Source: Actinocorallia populi | GTDB taxonomy: Bacteria; Actinomycetota; Actinomycetes; Streptosporangiales; Streptosporangiaceae | Assembly (NCBI RefSeq): GCF_002995495.1 | Contig: NZ_PVZV01000004.1 | Coordinates: forward strand, 62,001-126,000 | Direction of reading: 5' to 3' | Length of the DNA: 64,000 nt | In this document: positions 45,363 through 62,628 of the stretch, one piece after another | Layout of the letters: each line of letters begins with the position of its first letter | Position numbering within the stretch: position 1 is the stretch's first letter | Notes under the pieces: model-generated | The model's database searches: none | What the model saw: the letters and a program-made list of their open reading frames with translations, nothing else | Told to the model about the DNA's origin: nothing | Translations under genes and position numbers: made by a program

Positions 45363-47030
45363 TTGCGCCGCCACATGGTCCTGGAGGACCGGTACGAACT
45401 GCTCGACCTGGTGTCGAGCGGCGGCATGGGAGAGGTGTGGCGCGGCTTCGACCGGCGGCTGGACCGGCCGGTGGCGATCAAGGGCATCCGGCTCGACCGG
45501 GCCGCCTCGGACACGGTCGTCGCGCTCTTCCAGCAGGAGGCCAGGATCGGCGCCAAGCTGCGGCACCCCGGCCTCACCGTCATCCACGACCTCCTGGAGT
45601 ACCGGCTCGACGAGCCCGGCGGCGGCACCGCCCGTGAGAAGGGCCTGGCCCTGGTCATGGAGTTCCTCGAGGGCGAGGACCTGGGCCGGCTGCTGGAGGA
45701 GCGCACGTTCTCGGTGCGGGAGACCCTGGAGCTGGGCGCGAAGACCATCGAGGCGCTGCGGGCCGCGCACGCCGCCGGGGTCATCCACCGCGACGTCAAG
45801 CCGAGCAACCTCATGGTGCTGCCCGACGGGCAGGTGAAGATCTGCGACTTCGGCATCGCCAAGGCCCGCGACTCCACCAAGGGCCTGACCGCCGACGGGA
45901 TGCTCGGCACCTACGCCTACATCGCCCCCGAGCGCATCAGGCTCGAGAAGACCGACGCGCGGGTGGACCTCTACTCGTTCGGCATCGTGATGTACGAGCT
46001 GCTGCGGGGCAGGCCGCCGTTCGAGGGCGAGCCGGGGGCCGTCCTGCACGCCCACATGGAGGAGCGCCCGCCGAGCCTCCGGGGGACCGGAGGCCCGCCC
46101 GACCTTCCCGAGGATCTCGAAGAGCTGGTCCTGCAGCTGCTGGAGAAGGACCCCGCGGCCCGCCCTCCGGACGCGGAGACGGTCCTGCGCCGCATCAGAG
46201 AGATCGAGCGCTCCCTTCCCCGCCTCCTCCAGGGCCGCTACGAACTCGTCCGCCGCCTCGCGTCCAGCGGGCTGACCGACACCTACCTGGCCAGGGACGT
46301 CCGAGCCCACCGCGACGTCGCGCTCAGGCTCCTGCGCTCGGACCTCCTGGGCGACCCGTCGTCCCGTGAGGAGTTCCTCCACGAGCTGGCCCGCGAGCTC
46401 CCCGGCTCGGTCGCGGCCGTCACGGAGACCGGCGAGAGCCCCGTCGCGGTCACGCTCCCCTTCGCCGTCCTCGACCTGGACCGGGCGGTACCGCTGCGCA
46501 GCCGCCTGGCGGACGGCCCCCTGCCCGCCCAGGAGGCCGTGCGGCTCGCCGACCTCGTGCTGCGGGCGCTGGAACGCGGCCACGCCGACGGCCTGGCCCA
46601 CCCCGGCCTGAGTCCCGACACCGTCCTGCTCTCCGGCGATCCGGACCGTCCGGACGTCCGCTTCCTCACTTTCGCCGCCCGCCCTCCGTCGTCGGCGGAG
46701 CCCGGCGACGACCTGCGCGCCGTCGCCCGCCTCCTGCACGAGCTCCTCACCGGCACGCCGCACCGGCCCGGCGCGGAACCCTCGGCCCTCAACCCCTACG
46801 TGCCGTCGTGGTGCGACGAGCTCGTCCGAAGGGCCCTGTCCTCCGACCGCCCCTACCGTTCGGCCGCCGAGTTCCGCCGCGCCCTCCAGGACCGGCCCGT
46901 CCCCGCCCGGACGACGGCCCGCGACCCCCTCCCGCAGGCGTCCTCCCCTCTCGGCTACCTGGGCGTGGGGCTCCTGATCGTCATCACCCTCGTCTCCACC
47001 GGCCTTCTCCTGCTCACCTGGCTCCGCTGA
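45363..47030 (+). CDS. Membrane Ser/Thr kinase with tandem kinase and pseudokinase domains
   Basis: 555 aa. TTG start with AAGGGGG upstream (ATG 12 bp later is possible). Active kinase ~12-280: SSGGMGEVWRGFDR, PVAIKGIRL, GVIHRDVKPSNLMV, ICDFGIAKA, YIAPERIRL. Second kinase-like domain ~290-520: GRYELVRRLASSGLTDTYLA, VALRLLR, but LAHPGLSPDTVLLSG replaces HRDxKPxN and DFG is missing, so it is a pseudokinase. C-terminal helix ~528-551 (LGVGLLIVITLVSTGLLLL). No extracellular domain follows, so the binding protein encoded upstream may supply it. Confidence 0.88.
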   Translation: MRRHMVLEDRYELLDLVSSGGMGEVWRGFDRRLDRPVAIKGIRLDRAASDTVVALFQQEARIGAKLRHPGLTVIHDLLEYRLDEPGGGTAREKGLALVMEFLEGEDLGRLLEERTFSVRETLELGAKTIEALRAAHAAGVIHRDVKPSNLMVLPDGQVKICDFGIAKARDSTKGLTADGMLGTYAYIAPERIRLEKTDARVDLYSFGIVMYELLRGRPPFEGEPGAVLHAHMEERPPSLRGTGGPPDLPEDLEELVLQLLEKDPAARPPDAETVLRRIREIERSLPRLLQGRYELVRRLASSGLTDTYLARDVRAHRDVALRLLRSDLLGDPSSREEFLHELARELPGSVAAVTETGESPVAVTLPFAVLDLDRAVPLRSRLADGPLPAQEAVRLADLVLRALERGHADGLAHPGLSPDTVLLSGDPDRPDVRFLTFAARPPSSAEPGDDLRAVARLLHELLTGTPHRPGAEPSALNPYVPSWCDELVRRALSSDRPYRSAAEFRRALQDRPVPARTTARDPLPQASSPLGYLGVGLLIVITLVSTGLLLLTWLR

Positions 47031-49294: not shown

Positions 49295-50167
49295 ATGTTC
49301 GGCAAGAAGCTCAGGGCACTGCGCCTGGCGCCGCTCGCCGCGGCGGTGGCCGCGGCCGGCCTCGTCGCCGCCCCGCCCGCCCACGCCGCGAACCCCTACG
49401 AGCGCGGTCCGGCCCCGACCGAGAACAGCATCGAGGCGCTGCGCGGTCCGTTCGCGGTGTCGCAGACCTCGGTGTCCTCGCTGTCGGCCATCGGTTTCGG
49501 CGGCGGCACGATCTACTACCCGACGACCACCACCCAGGGCACGTTCGGCGCGGTCGCGATCTCGCCCGGCTTCACCGCCTACGAGTCCAGCATCGCCTGG
49601 CTCGGCCCGCGCCTGGCCTCCCAGGGCTTCGTGGTCTTCACGATCGACACCAACACCACGATGGACCAGCCCGCCAGCCGCGGCGACCAGCTGCTGGCCG
49701 CGCTGGACCACCTGACCGAGCGCAGCTCCGTGCGCTCGCGCGTCGACGAGTCCCGCCTGGCCGTGATGGGCCACTCCATGGGCGGCGGCGGCACGCTCGA
49801 GGCGGCCAAGGACCGGCCCTCCCTGAAGGCCGCGATCGGGATGACGCCGTGGAACCTCACCAAGAACTGGTCGGGGAACCGGGTGCCGACCTTCATCATC
49901 GGCGCGGAGAACGACTCGGTCGCCTCGGTGTCCTCGCACGCCGAGCCGTTCTACAACAGCCTGTCGGCGTCGTCGGAGAAGGCGTATCTGGAGCTGAACA
50001 ACGCCTCGCACTTCGCGCCCAACACGTCCAACACGCCGATCGCGAAGTACTCGATCTCCTGGTTGAAGCGCTTCGTCGACGACGACACGCGTTACACCCA
50101 GTTCCTGTGCCCCGGTCCGAGCCGGAGCACGGACGTGGAGGAGTACCGCTCCAGCTGCCCCGTCTGA
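49295..50167 (+). CDS. Secreted polyester hydrolase (cutinase/PET hydrolase-like)
   Basis: 290 aa with GAGGAGA before the ATG. Sec signal peptide 1-31 with cleavage after PAHA; mature [20 protein letters not shown]. Alpha/beta hydrolase: oxyanion region [20 protein letters not shown], nucleophile elbow [15 protein letters not shown], acid in [12 protein letters not shown], His in [12 protein letters not shown]; terminal Cys pair in TQFLCPGP and YRSSCPV. The text closely follows thermophilic actinomycete cutinases (from memory, Thermobifida and Thermomonospora enzymes) that hydrolyse cutin, polyesters and PET. Difference noticed: TPWNL where those have TPWHL. Secreted, acting outside the cell. 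Confidence 0.93.
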
Positions 50168-51484: not shown

Positions 51485-52036
51485 GTGGAAACGGGCAAGC
51501 GGGCCCGCCCCAGGGTGAGCAGGCGCGACTGGGTCGAGGCCGCCTACCAGGAGCTCATCAGGAGCGGCGAGCCCGGCATCGGCATCAACGCGCTCGCCGC
51601 CCGCCTGGGCGTCACCAAGGGCAGCTTCTACTGGCACTTCCGCGACCGCTCCGAACTGCTGCGCGCCCTCCTCGACCGCTGGGCCCACGAACGCACCGAC
51701 GAGGTCCTCGGCCTCGCCTTCGGCACCACCCCCGACCCGCGCGAACGCCTCCGCCGCATCCAGGCGCTCGGCGCCGAGGTGGCGCCCCTGGACCGCGCGA
51801 TGCGCCTGTGGGCCCAGCACGACCCGGCCGCCGCCGAGGCCGTCCGCCACGCCGACCGCGCCATGCTCGCCCACATCACCGCCTGCCTCACCGGCCTCGC
51901 CGTCCCCGACGCCCCCCTCCGCGCCCTCCTCATGCTCCGCGCCTGGGTCGGCGGCTACCTCGTCCCCGCCCCGGACGGCGTCCCCGCCGCCGACCCCGAC
52001 GACCTCCTGGACTTCTTCCTCCGCAACGGTGAGTGA
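51485..52036 (+). CDS. TetR-family transcriptional regulator
   Basis: 183 aa, GTG start with GAGGAGG upstream. HTH at ~12-58: RRDWVEAAYQELIRSGEPGI, LAARLGVTKGSFYWHFRDRS, typical TetR recognition helix. The C-terminal ligand domain is short. It follows the flavoprotein gene by 31 bp and probably represses the operon through the nested palindromes at 50238-50296. Confidence 0.9.
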   Translation: METGKRARPRVSRRDWVEAAYQELIRSGEPGIGINALAARLGVTKGSFYWHFRDRSELLRALLDRWAHERTDEVLGLAFGTTPDPRERLRRIQALGAEVAPLDRAMRLWAQHDPAAAEAVRHADRAMLAHITACLTGLAVPDAPLRALLMLRAWVGGYLVPAPDGVPAADPDDLLDFFLRNGE

Positions 52037-52157
52037 TCGGTCCCCGACCCTCCGGACAGGTCGAGTTCGGCCATTCCGTTGAAGTCGCGGAGGGACTCTG
52101 GTCACATGGGACGGCTCGTTGTCTGCTGTTCCCGGGGGTCGGCGTACGGAGGTCGGA

Positions 52158-54674
52158 GTGGCTCGGCTCGACGTCCCTCAGGAAGTGGCCGGGTACCGGC
52201 TCGGAAGGAAGCTGGGCGAGGGCGGCCAGGCGGACGTCTACCTGGGGGAGAACGCGGCGGGGTCGCAGGCCGCGGTGAAGCTGTACAGGCCGATGCGGGA
52301 CGCCCACGCCCGGTGCGCCAAGGAGATCCAGGTGCTGCGCCGAGTGCCGGCCGAGTACGCCGCCCGGCTGCTGGAATCCGGTGAGGCGAACGGCCGCCCG
52401 TATCTCGTCACCGAGTACATCGAGGGCGACACCCTGCGGGACCGGCTCGAGGAGCTCCCGGCCGGCGCGGACGGCCTGAGGCGGCTGGATCCGGCCGGGC
52501 TGCGCCAGGTGGCGCTCGGGTCGATCACCGCGCTCGCCGCCTTCCACGAGCACGGCGTCGTGCACCGGGACTTCAAACCGGCGAACGTGATCTGCACGGC
52601 GGACCGCGTCCACGTGATCGACTTCGGGATCGCCCACCGGGTCGGTGACGCCACGACCGTCTGGAACGGGCCGGTCGGCACCGTCGCCTACATGTCGCCC
52701 GAGCAGTTCGCCCCGGGCAGGGCGGGGTTCTCCTCGGACGTGTTCAGCTGGGCCGTCGTCATGGTGCACGCCGCGACGGGCAGGCACCCCTTCCGCGACG
52801 AGGACGACGACGCCGACCGGGTGATCGAGCGGATCAGGACGCAGACCCCCGACCTGGCCGCCTTCCCGAGGCCGTGGCGCTCCCTGCTGAAGAAGTGCCT
52901 GCACAAGAGGCCGAACAGGCGCCCTGCGGCCGGGAGGGTCCGCGAGGCCGTCGCGTCCCTGGACGGGCCGGTGCTCGCGGTCCCCGCCGCCCGGCGGGCG
53001 CCGCGGGAGACGGTCCCCGATCCGCGGACCCGGCCGGACGTCCGGCCCGCGCGGTGGTCCGAGAGGCCGGTGGCGGGACTGGCGCTGGGGGCCGTGCTGG
53101 CCGGGACGGCCTGGGCGGGCGCGGTGCTGGCGGGAGACGAGGACACCGGCTGCCCGCAGCCGCTCGTGTTGCGGGCCATGGTCCCGGCCGAGCTGCGGGA
53201 GGAGTTGCACCGGGCGGGGCAGGACTTCGCGGCGGCGGAGGCGGGCGACGGGTGTCGGCCCGTCCAGGTGACGGTGTCGGCCCAGCCGTCGCTGGAGGCG
53301 CTGCGTTCGGGGCTGGCGGCCGGCTGGGCGGACCGGCTGGGCACGGACCCGCAACCGGACGTCCTGCTGATGAGCAGCTCGGCCGAGAAGGCGTACGTCG
53401 ATTCGGCGTCGGCGGAGGGCGAGGCCCCTCCCGGGGCGCGGCCTCCGAAGCTGGTGGACCTCGGGAGCACCGGTGAGAGGTCGGCGATGTCCGTGGCCGC
53501 GACGGCGGCGGCCTGGGACGTCCTCGACGCGGAGCGGCGGGACGGGCGCTGGAACGACCTCCCGGGACTGCTGGAGCGGGCCGAGGCGCACGGGATCGGG
53601 GTGCTGCGCCCCAACCCGGACAGCGCGGCCTCGGGAACGCTCGGCAGCCTGGGCTTCTACGCCGACCCCGCGGTGAACGGGGACGAGGAGCGGCTGAACG
53701 CCTTCGAACGCCAGGTGGCGCGGGTCCCGATCGCCGACGCCGGGACGGCGCTGTGCGCGCTGGAGGAGCGGTCCCAGGCGGTGGCGATCGTTCCCGAGCG
53801 GGTCGTGGACGCCCACAACGCGGCGTCCTCGTCCGGGAGGAGCACCGGGTGCGGGACCGGGCGCAGGCCCACGACGTTCCCCCTGCTGCAGGTCGACGGG
53901 CTCCACCGGCTGGACTACCCGCTCGTCCACGTCGTCTGGCCCGGCGAGCGGGCGGCGGAGCGCGCGGAGTACGCCGAGCGGTTCCGCGACCGGCTCGCCG
54001 GGCGGGCGTCCGGGGGCGACTGGCCCCGCGGCTCCGTCCCCCTGGAGCCCGGCGCGCTCGCCGGCACCCAGGACCTCCTCAAGCGGACCCGCGGCGGGCG
54101 GACCTTCGAGGTCCTGGTCGACCGGTCCGGTTCCATGGAGCGGGACGCCCCGGGCGGCGTCCCGCTGGTCGCCGTCCGGGCACTGACCGGCGACCTGCTG
54201 GGCGAGCTGCGGGAGCACGACAGGATCGGGCTGGCGGCCTTCCCCGAAGAGGGGGGCAGGGACCCGGTCGAGCTCCTGGCGCACGGACCTGCGGGCGTCG
54301 AGGAGGTCCTGGCGGTGCGCGCACGGATGGAGGGGCTCGAGGCGGAGGAGGTGGTCACGCCGCTGCACCGGGCCATCGCGGTCAGGGGGTCGGCGTTGAA
54401 CTCCGCCGATCCCGAAGGCGTGCTCGTCGTCTTCACCGACGGGGTCGACGAGGACGTCTCCGAGGCCGCGGCGCGGGAGGCCGCCGCCGACATGGGCGCG
54501 GAACTCGGCCGCCAGGGCGCCCCGCGGGTCGTCGTGGTGGTGCTGGGCGGCCGCAGGTGCGCCGACGGCGTCAAGGCCATGGACGAGAGGTTCGAGGACT
54601 TCGTGTGCGTCGCGGCCGGGAGGTCGTCCTACGAGGACCTCCGGGCCAGGCTGTTCGTCGAGATCTGGAGATGA
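52158..54674 (+). CDS. Ser/Thr kinase / TM / solute-binding / vWA fusion protein
   Basis: 838 aa from the GTG with GGAGG 5 bp upstream. Kinase ~13-270: GEGGQADVYLGE, AAVKLYR, VVHRDFKPANVI, VIDFGIAHR, YMSPEQFAP. Membrane helix ~307-325 (AGLALGAVLAGTAWAGAVLA). Solute-binding region ~335-625 (LVLRAMVPAELREELHRAGQ, DVLLMSSSAEKAYVDSASAE, VPIADAGTALCALEERSQAV). vWA domain ~645-838 with MIDAS DRSGSM, Thr in EVVTPLHRA and Asp in VVFTDGVDEDV. The topology puts both last domains outside. SBP-vWA pairings occur in actinomycetes; with a cytoplasmic kinase it looks like a receptor kinase for an extracellular ligand or surface partner (inference). Confidence 0.87.
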   Translation: MARLDVPQEVAGYRLGRKLGEGGQADVYLGENAAGSQAAVKLYRPMRDAHARCAKEIQVLRRVPAEYAARLLESGEANGRPYLVTEYIEGDTLRDRLEELPAGADGLRRLDPAGLRQVALGSITALAAFHEHGVVHRDFKPANVICTADRVHVIDFGIAHRVGDATTVWNGPVGTVAYMSPEQFAPGRAGFSSDVFSWAVVMVHAATGRHPFRDEDDDADRVIERIRTQTPDLAAFPRPWRSLLKKCLHKRPNRRPAAGRVREAVASLDGPVLAVPAARRAPRETVPDPRTRPDVRPARWSERPVAGLALGAVLAGTAWAGAVLAGDEDTGCPQPLVLRAMVPAELREELHRAGQDFAAAEAGDGCRPVQVTVSAQPSLEALRSGLAAGWADRLGTDPQPDVLLMSSSAEKAYVDSASAEGEAPPGARPPKLVDLGSTGERSAMSVAATAAAWDVLDAERRDGRWNDLPGLLERAEAHGIGVLRPNPDSAASGTLGSLGFYADPAVNGDEERLNAFERQVARVPIADAGTALCALEERSQAVAIVPERVVDAHNAASSSGRSTGCGTGRRPTTFPLLQVDGLHRLDYPLVHVVWPGERAAERAEYAERFRDRLAGRASGGDWPRGSVPLEPGALAGTQDLLKRTRGGRTFEVLVDRSGSMERDAPGGVPLVAVRALTGDLLGELREHDRIGLAAFPEEGGRDPVELLAHGPAGVEEVLAVRARMEGLEAEEVVTPLHRAIAVRGSALNSADPEGVLVVFTDGVDEDVSEAAAREAAADMGAELGRQGAPRVVVVVLGGRRCADGVKAMDERFEDFVCVAAGRSSYEDLRARLFVEIWR

Positions 54675-56038
54675 GCATGCGCCAGTGGAAGTTCGCCGCG
54701 GGGATGCTCGCCGGGATGCTCCTCGTGGGCGTCGCCGCCCTGGCCGTCCACCGGCCCTGGCAGGGGAGCGGCTGCCCGGAGCGCAGGGGCGGCACGCTCG
54801 TCGTGCTGGGCGACAAGGACGTCAGCTCCGGCAGGCAGCGCAAGGCGGAGATCGAGCGGTGGCGCGGCCCCGGCGGGACGCGGGCCGAGCTGCGCGAGCT
54901 GTCGGGGGTGGCCGACCTCCAGCACGCCCAGCTGGCCGCGACGGCGCAGGACGGGGGCTGCGGCGTCGACGTCTACATCCTCGACGGCCCCTGGGTCGCT
55001 GAGTTCGCCGAGGCTGGGCACCTGGCGCCCCTCGAAGGCGGCGGGGAGCGGCTCGACGGGCTGCTGACGGGGGAGCTGCGCGAGAGCGGGTACCACGACG
55101 GAGAACTGTGGGCGGTGCCCTTCAGCGCCGAAGCCCCGCTGCTGTACTACCGCAAGGACCTGCTGGAGAAGGCGGATCTCGAGCCGCCCGAGAGCTGGGA
55201 CGAGGTGTGGGAGCACTCCCGGACGCTGCTCGCGGACCCCTCCAGCGGGCTCCGCGCCGGGTACGCCGCCCAGCTGGCCCACTACGAGGGCTTCACCATC
55301 AACGTCCTCGAACTGATGTGGATGCACGACCGCAGCGAACTCCTCGACGACGACGGCGAGGTCGAGATCAACACGATCGCGCTCCAGGAGATCCGGGAGA
55401 AGTTCGACGACCCCCGGCTCATCGCGCGGGAGTCCTTCACCTGGCACGAGGACGAGGCGACCCGGGCCTTCGTCGAGGGCGAGACGCTGTTCCTGCGCAA
55501 CTGGCCGACCGCGTACCGGAAACTGGCCGAGGACCCGTCCGCCGAGAACGCCGGGCGGCTCACCGAGAAGTACGGCGTCACGGTGCTGCCCAGGAACGGC
55601 GTCCTGGGCGGGCAGAGCCTGGCCGTCGCCGCGAACTCCCCGTACAAGGCGGAGGCGCGGCGGCTCATCGAGGCGCTGACCGGCTACGGCGCCCAGAACA
55701 GGCTGTTCTGGTGCGGGGGGTTCGCGCCGGTGCACGCCGGGGTCTACGACAGGCGGAGCCCGGAGGCGTGCGACGCCGGGGCCTCCGACGACGAGGGCGG
55801 GTACGTCGCGCAACTGCCGCCGGAGGAGCTGGACACCCTGCGCGCGGCCGTCGAACAGGCCCGCCCCCGGCCGAACACCCCCTACTACACCGAGTTCAGC
55901 CGGGTGTTCCAGGAAGTCCTGTACTGCGATCTCCAACCGGAGGCGCGGGTCACGTCGTGTCCGCAGAAGCCGGGATCGGCCCCGGAGTTCCTCCCCGATC
56001 TGGAGAAGCGGCTCACCGACGCGCTGCGGGGGCGTTGA
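54671..56038 (+). CDS. Membrane-anchored extracellular solute-binding protein (family 1)
   Basis: 455 aa, ATG overlapping the kinase-fusion stop (ATGA). N-terminal helix ~8-27 (FAAGMLAGMLLVGVAALAV) with no lipobox Cys, so an uncleaved anchor. The type 2 binding fold: GTLVVLGDKDVSSGRQRKAE, VDVYILDGPWVAEFAEAGHL, LWAVPFSAEAPLLYYRKDLL (maltose/sugar-family signature), AFVEGETLFLRNWPTAYRKL, GGQSLAVAANSPYKAEARRL. No ABC partners are present. Strict coupling with the kinase/SBP/vWA protein suggests a receptor complex or ligand-presenting subunit. Confidence 0.85.
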   Translation: MSMRQWKFAAGMLAGMLLVGVAALAVHRPWQGSGCPERRGGTLVVLGDKDVSSGRQRKAEIERWRGPGGTRAELRELSGVADLQHAQLAATAQDGGCGVDVYILDGPWVAEFAEAGHLAPLEGGGERLDGLLTGELRESGYHDGELWAVPFSAEAPLLYYRKDLLEKADLEPPESWDEVWEHSRTLLADPSSGLRAGYAAQLAHYEGFTINVLELMWMHDRSELLDDDGEVEINTIALQEIREKFDDPRLIARESFTWHEDEATRAFVEGETLFLRNWPTAYRKLAEDPSAENAGRLTEKYGVTVLPRNGVLGGQSLAVAANSPYKAEARRLIEALTGYGAQNRLFWCGGFAPVHAGVYDRRSPEACDAGASDDEGGYVAQLPPEELDTLRAAVEQARPRPNTPYYTEFSRVFQEVLYCDLQPEARVTSCPQKPGSAPEFLPDLEKRLTDALRGR

Positions 56039-56044
56039 GCGCCG

Positions 56045-56845
56045 TCAGCGGGCCGGACGCAGGAGGGTCTCCTGGGCGACGGAGGCCACGAGGGTGCCGT
56101 CGAGGGTGTGCATGGTGCCGCGGGCCAGACCGCGGGCGCCGTGGTTGAGGAGGGAGTCCATGGAGTAGAGCAGCCACTCGTCGGAGCGGGCGGGGCGGTG
56201 GAACCAGACGGCGTGGTCGAGGCTGACGGCCGTGACGTAGGAGGCGGTCGAGCCGGGGGCGCGCGAGGAGTCGACCACGGCGATGTCGGAGACGTAGGTC
56301 AGCACGCACGGGTGCAGCGACGGGTCGCCGACCGGGTCGAGGGAGCGGAACCAGAACGGGTGGCGCAGCGGGAACTCCTCGTCGCCCGGGGGGTTCACGG
56401 GGCGGACGTCGAAGTTCGGGATGTCGCCGAACCACGAGGGCAGCCGGTAGGCGGGGAGCTCCTCGGGGCGGGGCACGTCGAGCCCGCCGGACGGCTGCCA
56501 GTCCTCGCCGTCCTCCGGCACGTGGAAGGACGCCGTCAGCTCGAAGATCGTCTTGCCGTCCTGGCTCGCGGTGACGTGCCGGGTGGAGAACGTCCGGCCG
56601 TCGCGGGCGCGCCGCACGTCCAGGTGGAGGGGCTTGGCGGGCTGCCCGCCGCGCAGGAAGGAGGCGTGCAGGGAGTGCACGGGGCGGCCGGGGGCCACGG
56701 TCAGCTGGGCCGCGCGCAGGCTCTGCGCGGCGACCTGCCCGCCGAACGTGCGCTGCATCTCCGACTCCACGGGCCGGATCAGGAACCGGTCCTCGTCCTG
56801 CCGCTCCAGCGCGAAGATCTCCGCCAGTGCCCCGCTCATGCCCAT
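56045..56845 (-). CDS. Acyl-CoA thioesterase II (TesB-like), copy 1
   Basis: 266 aa. Double hot-dog fold: RFLIRPVESEMQRTFGGQVA, FSTRHVTASQDGKTIFELTA, DWQPSGGLDVPRPEELPAY, LDHAVWFHRPARSDEWLLYS. TesB enzymes hydrolyse medium- to long-chain acyl-CoA; the catalytic Asp is expected in VSLDHAVWFHRP. It is a tandem paralog of 56922-57749, sharing long identical blocks such as VPEDGEDWQPSGG. Confidence 0.92.
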   Translation of the reverse strand: MGMSGALAEIFALERQDEDRFLIRPVESEMQRTFGGQVAAQSLRAAQLTVAPGRPVHSLHASFLRGGQPAKPLHLDVRRARDGRTFSTRHVTASQDGKTIFELTASFHVPEDGEDWQPSGGLDVPRPEELPAYRLPSWFGDIPNFDVRPVNPPGDEEFPLRHPFWFRSLDPVGDPSLHPCVLTYVSDIAVVDSSRAPGSTASYVTAVSLDHAVWFHRPARSDEWLLYSMDSLLNHGARGLARGTMHTLDGTLVASVAQETLLRPAR

Positions 56846-56921: not shown

Positions 56922-57749
56922 TCAGAACGCCAGGCCGCCGCCGGTGCGGTCGGGACGCAGCAGGGTCTCCTGGGCGATCGAGGCGACGAGGGCGCCGTCG
57001 CGGGTGCGCAGGGAGCCCTGGGTCATGCCGCGGGCGCCGTGGTTGCTGACGGGCGCCATCGTGTGCAGGAGCCACTCGTCGGCACGGGCCGGGCGGTGGA
57101 ACCACACCGAGAGGTCGAGGCTGGCGAAGCCGGAGTAGGCGAAGGCCGAGCCGGGCGGGCGGGAGGCGTGGACCAGGCCGATGTCGGTGAGGTAGGTGAC
57201 GAGGCAGGCGTGCAGCGCCGGATCCTGCACGGGGGAGGAGAAGCGGATCCAGTACGGGTGGCGCAGCGGGAAGTCCTCCTCCTCGACGAGCGGGGCCATC
57301 GGCCGGACGTCGATGTAGGGAGCGAGTTTGAAGAAGAACGGCGGGGGCTGGAAGGGGGTGATCTCCTCGGGGGCGGGGACGTCGGGCCCGCCGGACGGCT
57401 GCCAGTCCTCGCCGTCCTCCGGGACCTGGAAGGACGCCGTCATCTCGAAGACGGTCCTCCCGCCCTGGCTCGCGGTGACGTGGCGGCCGGAGAAGCTCCG
57501 GCCCTCCCGGGTCCACCGCACGTCCAGATCGAGCGGCTCGGCGGACTTCCCGACCTGGAGGAAATGGCCGTGCAGGGAGTGCACCGGGCGTTCGCGGCGG
57601 ACGGTGAGGCTCGCCGCCCACAGGCTCTGCGCCGCGATCTGGCCGCCGAAGGAGCGCGGCATCACCCCCGCGACGGGGTCGGCGGTGAACCGGTTCTCGG
57701 CCCGCCGCTCCAGTGTGAAGAGCTCCTTCAACGCCTCGGTCAGGTCCAT
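56922..57749 (-). CDS. Acyl-CoA thioesterase II (TesB-like), copy 2
   Basis: 275 aa from the ATG at 57749 (MDLTEALKELFTLERRAENR), AAGGA upstream. Same double hot-dog motifs as copy 1: VMPRSFGGQIAAQSLWAASL, FSGRHVTASQGGRTVFEMTA, LDLSVWFHRPARADEWLLHT. A 76-bp gap separates the copies. A strong operator-like repeat with a consensus-like -10 lies ~85 bp upstream, so this copy heads the pair. The arrangement suggests duplication and divergence of chain-length preference. Confidence 0.92.
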   Translation of the reverse strand: MDLTEALKELFTLERRAENRFTADPVAGVMPRSFGGQIAAQSLWAASLTVRRERPVHSLHGHFLQVGKSAEPLDLDVRWTREGRSFSGRHVTASQGGRTVFEMTASFQVPEDGEDWQPSGGPDVPAPEEITPFQPPPFFFKLAPYIDVRPMAPLVEEEDFPLRHPYWIRFSSPVQDPALHACLVTYLTDIGLVHASRPPGSAFAYSGFASLDLSVWFHRPARADEWLLHTMAPVSNHGARGMTQGSLRTRDGALVASIAQETLLRPDRTGGGLAF

Positions 57750-57828
57750 GCTCGGCGTCCTTCCGCTCGGTTCCGGAGCCGTTCGCCGGGCCCGGACGGC
57801 CGGGGCGCGAGGCCTCTTCGGAATCTGT

Positions 57829-57854
57829 GTTCTCACTATAGAGAACATAATTCT
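57829..57854 (-). promoter_or_regulatory. TesB operon promoter inside an inverted repeat
   Basis: GTTCTC (57829-57834) and GAGAAC (57841-57846) are perfect arms with ACTATA between; on the minus strand this spacer is TATAGT, a 5/6 match to the -10 consensus. A further half site TTCTC (57850-57854) makes GAGAA-CATAA-TTCTC. A repressor here would occlude the -10 directly. Confidence 0.6.
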
Positions 57855-61626: not shown

Positions 61627-62628
61627 TCAGGGGGAAGGGGACGGGACGGGCGTCGTGCGGGGAAAGGCGCGGCGGTAGTCGCTCGGGGACACCCCGATGT
61701 GCCTGAGGAAGTGGTGGCGGAGGTTGTTGGCCGTGCCCAGGCCGCTCATCTCGCCGATCTTCTCGATGGGGAGGTCGGTGGATTCCAGCAGGATTCGGGC
61801 ACGTCCCAGGCGTTGGGCGAGGAGCCACTGCAGGGGCGTCGTTCCGGTGGCGGCCTGGAGCCGCCGGTAGAAGGTGCGGGGGCTCATCGCGGCTCGCTGC
61901 GCCAGGTCCTGGACGGTCAGCGGCCGGTCCAGGCGGGCTCGTGCCCAGTCCAGTACGGGGACCAGGCCCTCGTCGTCGGCGGGCACGGGGGCTTCGATGA
62001 ACTGCGCCTGGCCTCCGGGGCGGTGGGCGGGCACGACCATGCGGCGGGCCAGCTGGTTGGCGACGCGGGCGCCGAGGTCGCGGCGCACCAGGTGGAGGCA
62101 GAGGTCGAGGCCCGCGGTCAGGCCGGCGCTGGTGAGCACGTCGCCGTCGTCCACGTAGAGCACCGAGTCGTCGACCTGAACCTTCGGGTAGCGCTCGGCC
62201 AGCAGGGCGGTGTGCATCCAGTGGGCCGTGGCGCGGCGGCCGTCGAGCAGGCCCGCCTCGGCGAGTGCGAAGGCGCCGGTGCACAGGGAGACCATGCGGG
62301 AGCCCGCGTCGTAGGCGCGGCGCAGTGCGGTGATCAGCTCCTGCGGCAGCGGCGCCCCCTCCTCGACGCAGGGGTCGGGGACCGAGGGCACGATGACCGT
62401 GTCGGCGCCGACGAGGTCGTCGAGCCCGTACCGGGTCCGCAGCGACAGCCCGGAGCCGGCGTTCTCCGGCCCTTCCCCCGTCGAGCAGAGCCGCAGGTCG
62501 TACCAGGGATCGGCCAGGTCGGGCTGCGGCTTGCCGAAGACGGTGCAGGGGATGCTCAGCTCGTACAGGTCCCACGAGGGGAGCCCGATCTCCTCGGACA
62601 CGACCACGGCGACGGAACCAGCGCTCAT
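61627..62628 (-). CDS. GlxA-type AraC-family regulator with DJ-1/PfpI domain
   Basis: 333 aa. N-terminal DJ-1/PfpI-like domain (VAVVVSEEIGLPSWDLYELS, nucleophile-elbow-like SLCTGAFALAEAGLLDGRRA, TAHW), then two AraC HTHs: TVQDLAQRAAMSPRTFYRRL and IEKIGEMSGLGTANNLRHHF. This family activates catabolic or stress genes in response to unknown ligands. It is divergent from the imine-reductase-like gene with a 127-bp gap and may control it. Confidence 0.92.
   Translation of the reverse strand: MSAGSVAVVVSEEIGLPSWDLYELSIPCTVFGKPQPDLADPWYDLRLCSTGEGPENAGSGLSLRTRYGLDDLVGADTVIVPSVPDPCVEEGAPLPQELITALRRAYDAGSRMVSLCTGAFALAEAGLLDGRRATAHWMHTALLAERYPKVQVDDSVLYVDDGDVLTSAGLTAGLDLCLHLVRRDLGARVANQLARRMVVPAHRPGGQAQFIEAPVPADDEGLVPVLDWARARLDRPLTVQDLAQRAAMSPRTFYRRLQAATGTTPLQWLLAQRLGRARILLESTDLPIEKIGEMSGLGTANNLRHHFLRHIGVSPSDYRRAFPRTTPVPSPSP

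Follow-up and report, generated by a model that had tools for sequence, protein, structure and literature searches.

PknB, with its PASTA domains, and PknD, with its NHL domain, are one-helix receptor kinases with an outer sensor, and in ChvE-VirA and LuxP-LuxQ sugar-type binding proteins act as co-receptors that signal through membrane histidine kinases. Here we describe a two-gene locus at positions 52158 to 56038 of a 64,000-nucleotide stretch of Actinocorallia populi DNA (contig NZ_PVZV01000004.1, forward-strand positions 62,001 to 126,000; this whole stretch is called the window below), in which a serine/threonine (Ser/Thr) kinase is fused to outer binding domains and followed by a separate sugar-type binding protein. 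What stimuli activate bacterial Ser/Thr kinases is described as an outstanding question (PMC6069109). In the actinobacterial GlnH-GlnX-PknG system, an outer solute-binding protein is proposed to act with a membrane protein in controlling the kinase (PMC6069109; see also PMC9769921), which is a precedent for a Ser/Thr kinase governed by a separate binding protein. A different kind of relative was described by Kaur et al. in 2020 as the two-gene EACC1-caspase conflict system, or "System 4" (PMC7159879). One sentence of that account speaks of caspases that carry membrane helices and, on the outside, a periplasmic-binding domain; the caspase is said to be replaced, less often, by a cyclase, and the C-terminal domains are read there as effectors, not sensors.

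We regard the locus described here as a receptor-type kinase whose outer half is new and belongs to a module with ties to that conflict system. On balance, we favour reading its two genes as a sugar-sensing transmembrane receptor whose usual inner end has been swapped for a Ser/Thr kinase. It is the simplest reading because the sugar pocket is near-invariant, the binder is anchored to the membrane, its partner of solute-binding protein (SBP) fold and vWA domain is constant, and the inner domain is exchangeable. The features of the locus, with residues in amino acids (aa), are the following.

52158..54674, + strand: gene 1, encoding the 838-aa receptor kinase; order of parts: kinase, membrane helix, type II solute-binding fold, vWA
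52148..52152, + strand: likely ribosome-binding site GGAGG, 5 nucleotides ahead of the GTG of gene 1 (seen in the sequence)
52194..52937, + strand: Ser/Thr kinase domain with intact catalytic motifs, aa 13-260 (Pfam PF00069, E 9e-40; motif positions)
53076..53135, + strand: single membrane helix, aa 307-326 (hydropathy scan, sequence)
53151..54095, + strand: outer type II solute-binding fold, aa 332-646
54096..54671, + strand: vWA domain, aa 647-838, with a metal-ion-dependent adhesion site (MIDAS): DxSxS at 54120-54134, TDG at 54435-54443
54671..56038, + strand: gene 2, membrane-anchored trehalose/alpha-glycoside-type binding protein, 455 aa
54677..54748, + strand: helix anchoring the N-terminus of gene 2 in the membrane, aa 3-26 (model secondary structure, sequence, scan)

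Judged by its sequence, gene 1 would count as a Hanks-type receptor kinase, having a complete kinase domain, a single helix and an outer sensor domain. The PF00069 alignment is nearly full length (profile positions 1-256 of 263), and K41, E56, HRD (136-138), DFG (155-157) and SPE (180-182) are all in place. The helix is flanked by arginines toward the kinase and by acidic residues on the opposite side. Six cysteines lie in the outer part, and in an ectodomain alignment of 26 rows there is no variation at C1, C202, C470 and C486, and at least 90% of rows keep C35. From the flanking charges and the conserved cysteines, the kinase is predicted to be cytoplasmic and the binding fold and vWA domain to be external. 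An earlier note on this DNA had described a four-part gene 1 with a receptor-like layout and a gene 2 overlapping it by 4 base pairs. Profiles, motifs and sequence bear out both the four parts and the ATGA overlap, the layout agrees with the order of kinase, single helix and outer domains, and the charges and cysteines speak for binding domains outside the cell, not in the cytoplasm as that note's own counter-case would have it. What the note overlooked is the trehalose/alpha-glycoside-type sugar subsite of gene 2; the adhesion role and the signalling by phosphorylation that it suggested are still matters of inference.

The two genes stay together across relatives. Type A loci were defined by an ectodomain profile score of at least 190 bits, which gave 122 distinct loci among the fetched stretches, and a gene 2 homologue directly follows the ectodomain gene in 120 of them; the pair is missing once at a contig end (L168) and once as a true absence within 7.9 kb (L256). 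Since only eight loci (L039-L046) were fetched through gene 2 and all others through the ectodomain, this pairing is no product of selection. The converse also holds, as the seven best gene 2 loci besides the window (L017-L023) all have an adjoining ectodomain gene. The conserved unit is the ectodomain (binding fold and vWA) together with the second binding protein, and not the kinase architecture: the coupling that the earlier note had claimed is kept across relatives, whereas its full domain order, kinase included, occurs among the 122 loci in the window only. The ectodomain profile found matches in 136 of 341 genomes of the window's own family, covering 36 of 68 genera (E 1e-55), and in 34 of 150 genomes of genus g54 (E 1e-40). 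With the same threshold of E 1e-40, a phylum-wide sample gave 6 of 296 genomes, of which two lie outside the class; the best E-value there was 7e-46. In the search of the class, 273 of 394 genomes matched at E 0.001, mostly weakly; the 30 best loci plus some weaker ones were read, and 20 weaker loci were fetched, two of them from the g54 search.

Relatives scoring below 190 bits, here called type B, amount to 19 loci, none with a gene 2 in the fetched stretch; L233, a broken caspase copy that also scores below 190 bits, is counted apart from them. One type B locus, L217, lies in the same genome as the window (contig C3, 10557-12449) and is an SBP_bac_11-vWA paralogue without the second binding protein, with two kinase-like genes within about 8 kb on the other strand. 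Another, L227 (3999-6641, minus strand), has an N-terminal HTH_31 match (E 2.5e-5, under the cut-off) before its membrane helix and might be a transcription regulator anchored in the membrane, its outer part being similar.

Gene 2 has the SBP_bac_1 fold and the sugar pocket found in the binding proteins of ATP-binding cassette (ABC) sugar importers, and its closest profile and fold matches are binders of maltose, trehalose, alpha-glycosides and sulfoquinovose. A scan of its N-terminal sequence revealed no lipobox. The anchor scan across gene 2 copies was crude, and four that it scored as membrane-anchored (L092, L095, L137 and L139) look lipoprotein-like by eye. In the trehalose-binding protein LpqY, as reported in PMC7949145, the sugar is contacted by D80, N134, E241, W259, R404 and the backbone of G334, E179 is the hinge partner of R404, and each of the changes E241A, W259A and R404A abolished detectable binding. 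Read from the alignment, D80, N134, E241, W259, R404, G334 and E179 correspond to D105, E154, E260, W278, R400, G314 and E206 of gene 2. Across 121 aligned gene 2 copies (those of the window, of L233 and of 119 further type A loci), D105, E260 and W278 are kept without exception, G314 in 119, R400 in 116 and the hinge latch E206 in 120.

At the other end of the module, the inner half is exchanged. By profile, the inner domain is a caspase in 36 of the 122 loci and trypsin-like in 7; EAD1 and a kinase occur once each, the kinase in the window, and none is recognised in 77. Where one is recognised it is N-terminal in every case, and it differs by clade. Pfam searches on examples agreed, with Peptidase_C14 in all four caspase copies tested and Trypsin_2 in all three trypsin-like copies (one of each set under the cut-off), and EAD1 in its one copy. 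Among the 77 unrecognised forms, 64 have at least two predicted membrane helices ahead of the ectodomain, and four (L040, L134, L136 and L155) are cut by a contig end or a frameshift. L155 does have a caspase, just out of frame; all 30 g54 loci from the first fetch carry the caspase, either in frame or, in L155, out of frame. As to further kinase fusions, every row of the family search with a frame of at least 787 aa was read (20 were fetched for it) and none had a kinase by profile, shorter frames being taken as too short to hold such a fusion; the check in g54 covered 30 loci and two read later, of 34 matches, leaving out G786 and G766. Separate kinase genes were found near the module in 2 of 48 loci (L086 and L090), downstream, with no pattern.

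Five of these 77, L210-L214, have an N-terminal domain with an invariant EDRGDG motif before the same ectodomain. It looks cyclase-like by eye, weakly; the three copies tested had no Pfam match, and the best match in the Protein Data Bank was the Ma1120 cyclase (E 0.015). The resemblance to class III nucleotide cyclases is weak, and the domain is possibly another type of output.

The exchange can also be followed in a FastTree tree of 142 ectodomains, with type B as the outgroup. The trypsin-like forms make up a single clade, as do the cyclase-like forms, and 38 caspase rows cluster with one contig-cut row (support 99). According to a warning from the program, long-branch attraction may have falsely united the two groups of caspase forms, and likewise the EAD1 pair and the cyclase-like group. 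The window falls in a six-row clade (support 99) whose remaining five rows are helix-only, and this clade is nested in a set of 56 rows (support 97), 54 of them helix-only and the other two being the window and a contig-cut row. Because the window nests among helix-only rows, its kinase most likely replaced a multi-helix N-terminus.

Under the receptor reading, the parts could work together as follows. Gene 2, anchored on the outside of the membrane, would bind a disaccharide or the end of a glycan in its trehalose/maltose-type pocket, and the sugar would close it. The closed, loaded protein would then dock on the outer part of gene 1, where the binding fold and the MIDAS-bearing vWA domain may form a co-receptor platform, perhaps making the contact through the MIDAS metal. 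Docking or clustering would pass the signal inward by letting kinase domains meet inside the cell and switching phosphorylation on. The usual multi-helix inner end would be replaced by the kinase here, and by a caspase or a trypsin-like protease in the same place elsewhere.

It is worth setting out together what weighs against this reading. The fused kinase is seen in only one of the 122 distinct type A loci, the window itself, and one genome with the kinase says little for the fusion being in use; the ectodomain profile matched neither of the two other genomes searched from the window's genus. The commonest form of the module, 77 of 122, is without a recognised inner enzyme. The end branch of the window ectodomain is long (1.52), so that its exact neighbour in the tree is unsure. 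The MIDAS is not universal, DxSxS being present in 114 and TD[GTS] in 92 of 123 members by a crude pattern. In the sugar subsite, the residue equivalent to LpqY N134 is D in 117 of the 121 copies, N in 3 and E in 1, the lone E being E154 of the window. More generally, because the same residues are common to the binding proteins of importers, the subsite shows a sugar pocket and neither signalling nor a new function.

The alternative that survives best is that the module does the sensing for a conflict or regulated-death system, watching the envelope for sugars released by wall damage, an invader or a predator and firing whichever inner enzyme is present, with the kinase as a local form of output. 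This is a narrower version of the receptor reading and not its opposite, and as an answer to whether the output is nutritional or protective we hold it to be doubtful, though worth keeping in view. The kinds of inner domain seen here also occur in the systems of Kaur et al., whose account (PMC7159879) mentions caspase-helix-periplasmic-binding fusions. L138 has a caspase that hits the NCBIfam model of EACC1-associated caspases at E 3e-31 and 108 bits, short of the cut-off of 140. A small gene lying before a caspase form gives a weak EACC1 match (E 0.0016, below the cut-off; one tested), and one lying before a trypsin form gives a Trypco2 match (E 1.5e-21; of four similar open reading frames one was tested). 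However, no EACC1 or Trypco gene adjoins the module in the window: the gene upstream, 51485-52036, encodes a TetR regulator (TetR_N, E 1e-10) and has no other Pfam match at E 0.001. The PADLOC defence labels of the gene 1 kinase, PD-T4-6 and mad6, were dropped, as they reflect similarity to kinase domains in general, and the commonest form of the module again has no recognised effector to fire. Kaur et al., moreover, take such C-terminal domains as effectors in the account cited; for the outer binding domain we consider sensing the likelier role. No plasmid record matched the window ectodomain at E 1e-5 or the caspase form L138 at E 1e-10, and in a viral structure library the matches listed were mostly vWA-annotated proteins.

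A much less probable alternative is that gene 2 supplies a sugar ABC importer encoded elsewhere, with gene 1 as its scaffold or regulator. Gene 2 does belong among importer binding proteins by sequence, orphan binding proteins can share importers, and two BPD_transp_1 permeases adjoin its nearest paralogue in the same genome. These two, MalF and MalG, served as queries, and the count thus covers permease and not ATPase genes. Matches lay near only 1 of 68 module loci (L044, on the opposite strand), the 67 loci besides the window being stretches of 4.5 to 17 kb; there was no MalF or MalG match anywhere in the window. As a control, gene 2-homologue loci without the ectodomain were examined. With 1.5-kb flanks, which proved too short, 2 of 12 had permeases, and most of the remaining ten had a second binding protein adjoining, by eye; when the same ten were refetched at 12 to 14 kb, 9 of 10 had both MalF and MalG matches. 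The reading of the module itself as a transporter was rejected because of this permease count and its contrast with the control. The earlier note had likewise seen no permease here, and had named homologs regularly lying beside permeases as the result that would speak against it. The same numbers tell against gene 2 as a shared importer subunit, as does the partner kept in 120 of 122 loci, which is the SBP-vWA protein. A separate gene 2 subfamily (L024-L031 and L034; in the wider stretches L261-L268 and L270) does occur with MalF/MalG permeases and mostly adjoins, by eye, a second binding protein and a PadR-like gene; these are importers with two binding proteins.

Least probable of all is an envelope adhesion or assembly factor, in which the vWA domain and binding fold grip a wall polymer or a neighbouring cell and the kinase signals that contact has been made, no small-molecule ligand being involved: the MIDAS vWA fold does resemble receptor vWA domains such as those of CMG2 and alpha-2/delta, but vWA folds are common, intracellular Rpn10 matches equally well and a fold match shows no function, and the near-invariant sugar subsite and hinge latch of gene 2 suit ligand-driven closure.

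Turning to the surroundings, gene 1 and gene 2 probably form an operon of their own, since the TetR gene precedes them and a convergent acyl-CoA thioesterase gene (56045-56845, minus strand) follows. The latter is the first of a tandem pair of acyl-CoA thioesterase genes, the other lying at 56922-57848 (minus strand). Further upstream, 49295-50167 (plus strand) encodes a secreted polyesterase of the polyethylene terephthalate (PET) hydrolase/cutinase type (Pfam PETase, E 2e-125; a solved PET hydrolase, E 8e-132). Another Ser/Thr kinase gene (Pkinase, E 6e-47) lies about 5 kb upstream of the module, at 45363-47030 (plus strand), and its product has, by eye, a second half that is kinase-like but degenerate and, at the C-terminus, a membrane helix.

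Fusions of a caspase, a membrane helix and a periplasmic-binding domain are already in print (PMC7159879). In the open-licence literature, outside which most subscription papers and preprints fall, we did not find the pair of SBP-vWA and sugar-binding proteins, its role as an exchange platform or its kinase form, nor the constant second binding protein and its sugar subsite. We would tentatively go one step further than the receptor reading and suggest an actinobacterial plug-in surface receptor, in which a sugar-loaded binder and a constant SBP-vWA adaptor drive a lineage-specific inner enzyme. If this were true, the outputs would include a kinase, a caspase, a trypsin-like protease, perhaps a nucleotide cyclase, or an EAD adaptor; the system would be akin to animal death and immune receptors, with the window as its kinase form. 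For the question of what bacterial Ser/Thr kinases respond to, the locus offers a concrete and testable class of ligands, disaccharide-like sugars, and a natural domain swap. As the outer pair is shared with caspases and trypsin-like proteases that resemble those of conflict systems, the identity of the ligand would also tell what these forms respond to at the cell surface.

How, then, does the locus compare with the known systems? Its outer domain is SBP-vWA, unlike the PASTA and NHL domains of PknB and PknD, and its kinase is a Ser/Thr kinase, whereas those of ChvE-VirA and LuxP-LuxQ are histidine kinases. LpqY-SugABC and other trehalose/maltose importers differ in that gene 2 has no MalF/MalG partner here and a receptor-like partner instead, and in the membrane-helix anchor of the window's gene 2. 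With GlnH-GlnX-PknG the locus shares an outer solute-binding protein, a membrane protein and a Ser/Thr kinase; PknG, however, is a protein of its own that bears a TPR domain, and that system responds to amino acids, whereas here the kinase is fused and gene 2 is of the sugar type. The caspase-form relatives of the module resemble System 4, with an N-terminal caspase, a membrane helix and a binding domain in the same order. Section 33 of PMC7159879, for its part, names neither a second binding protein nor a kinase there, and gives vWA fusions and periplasmic-binding fusions separately. The window itself departs from System 4 in having neither EACC1 nor a caspase, and a kinase stands in the position of the caspase.

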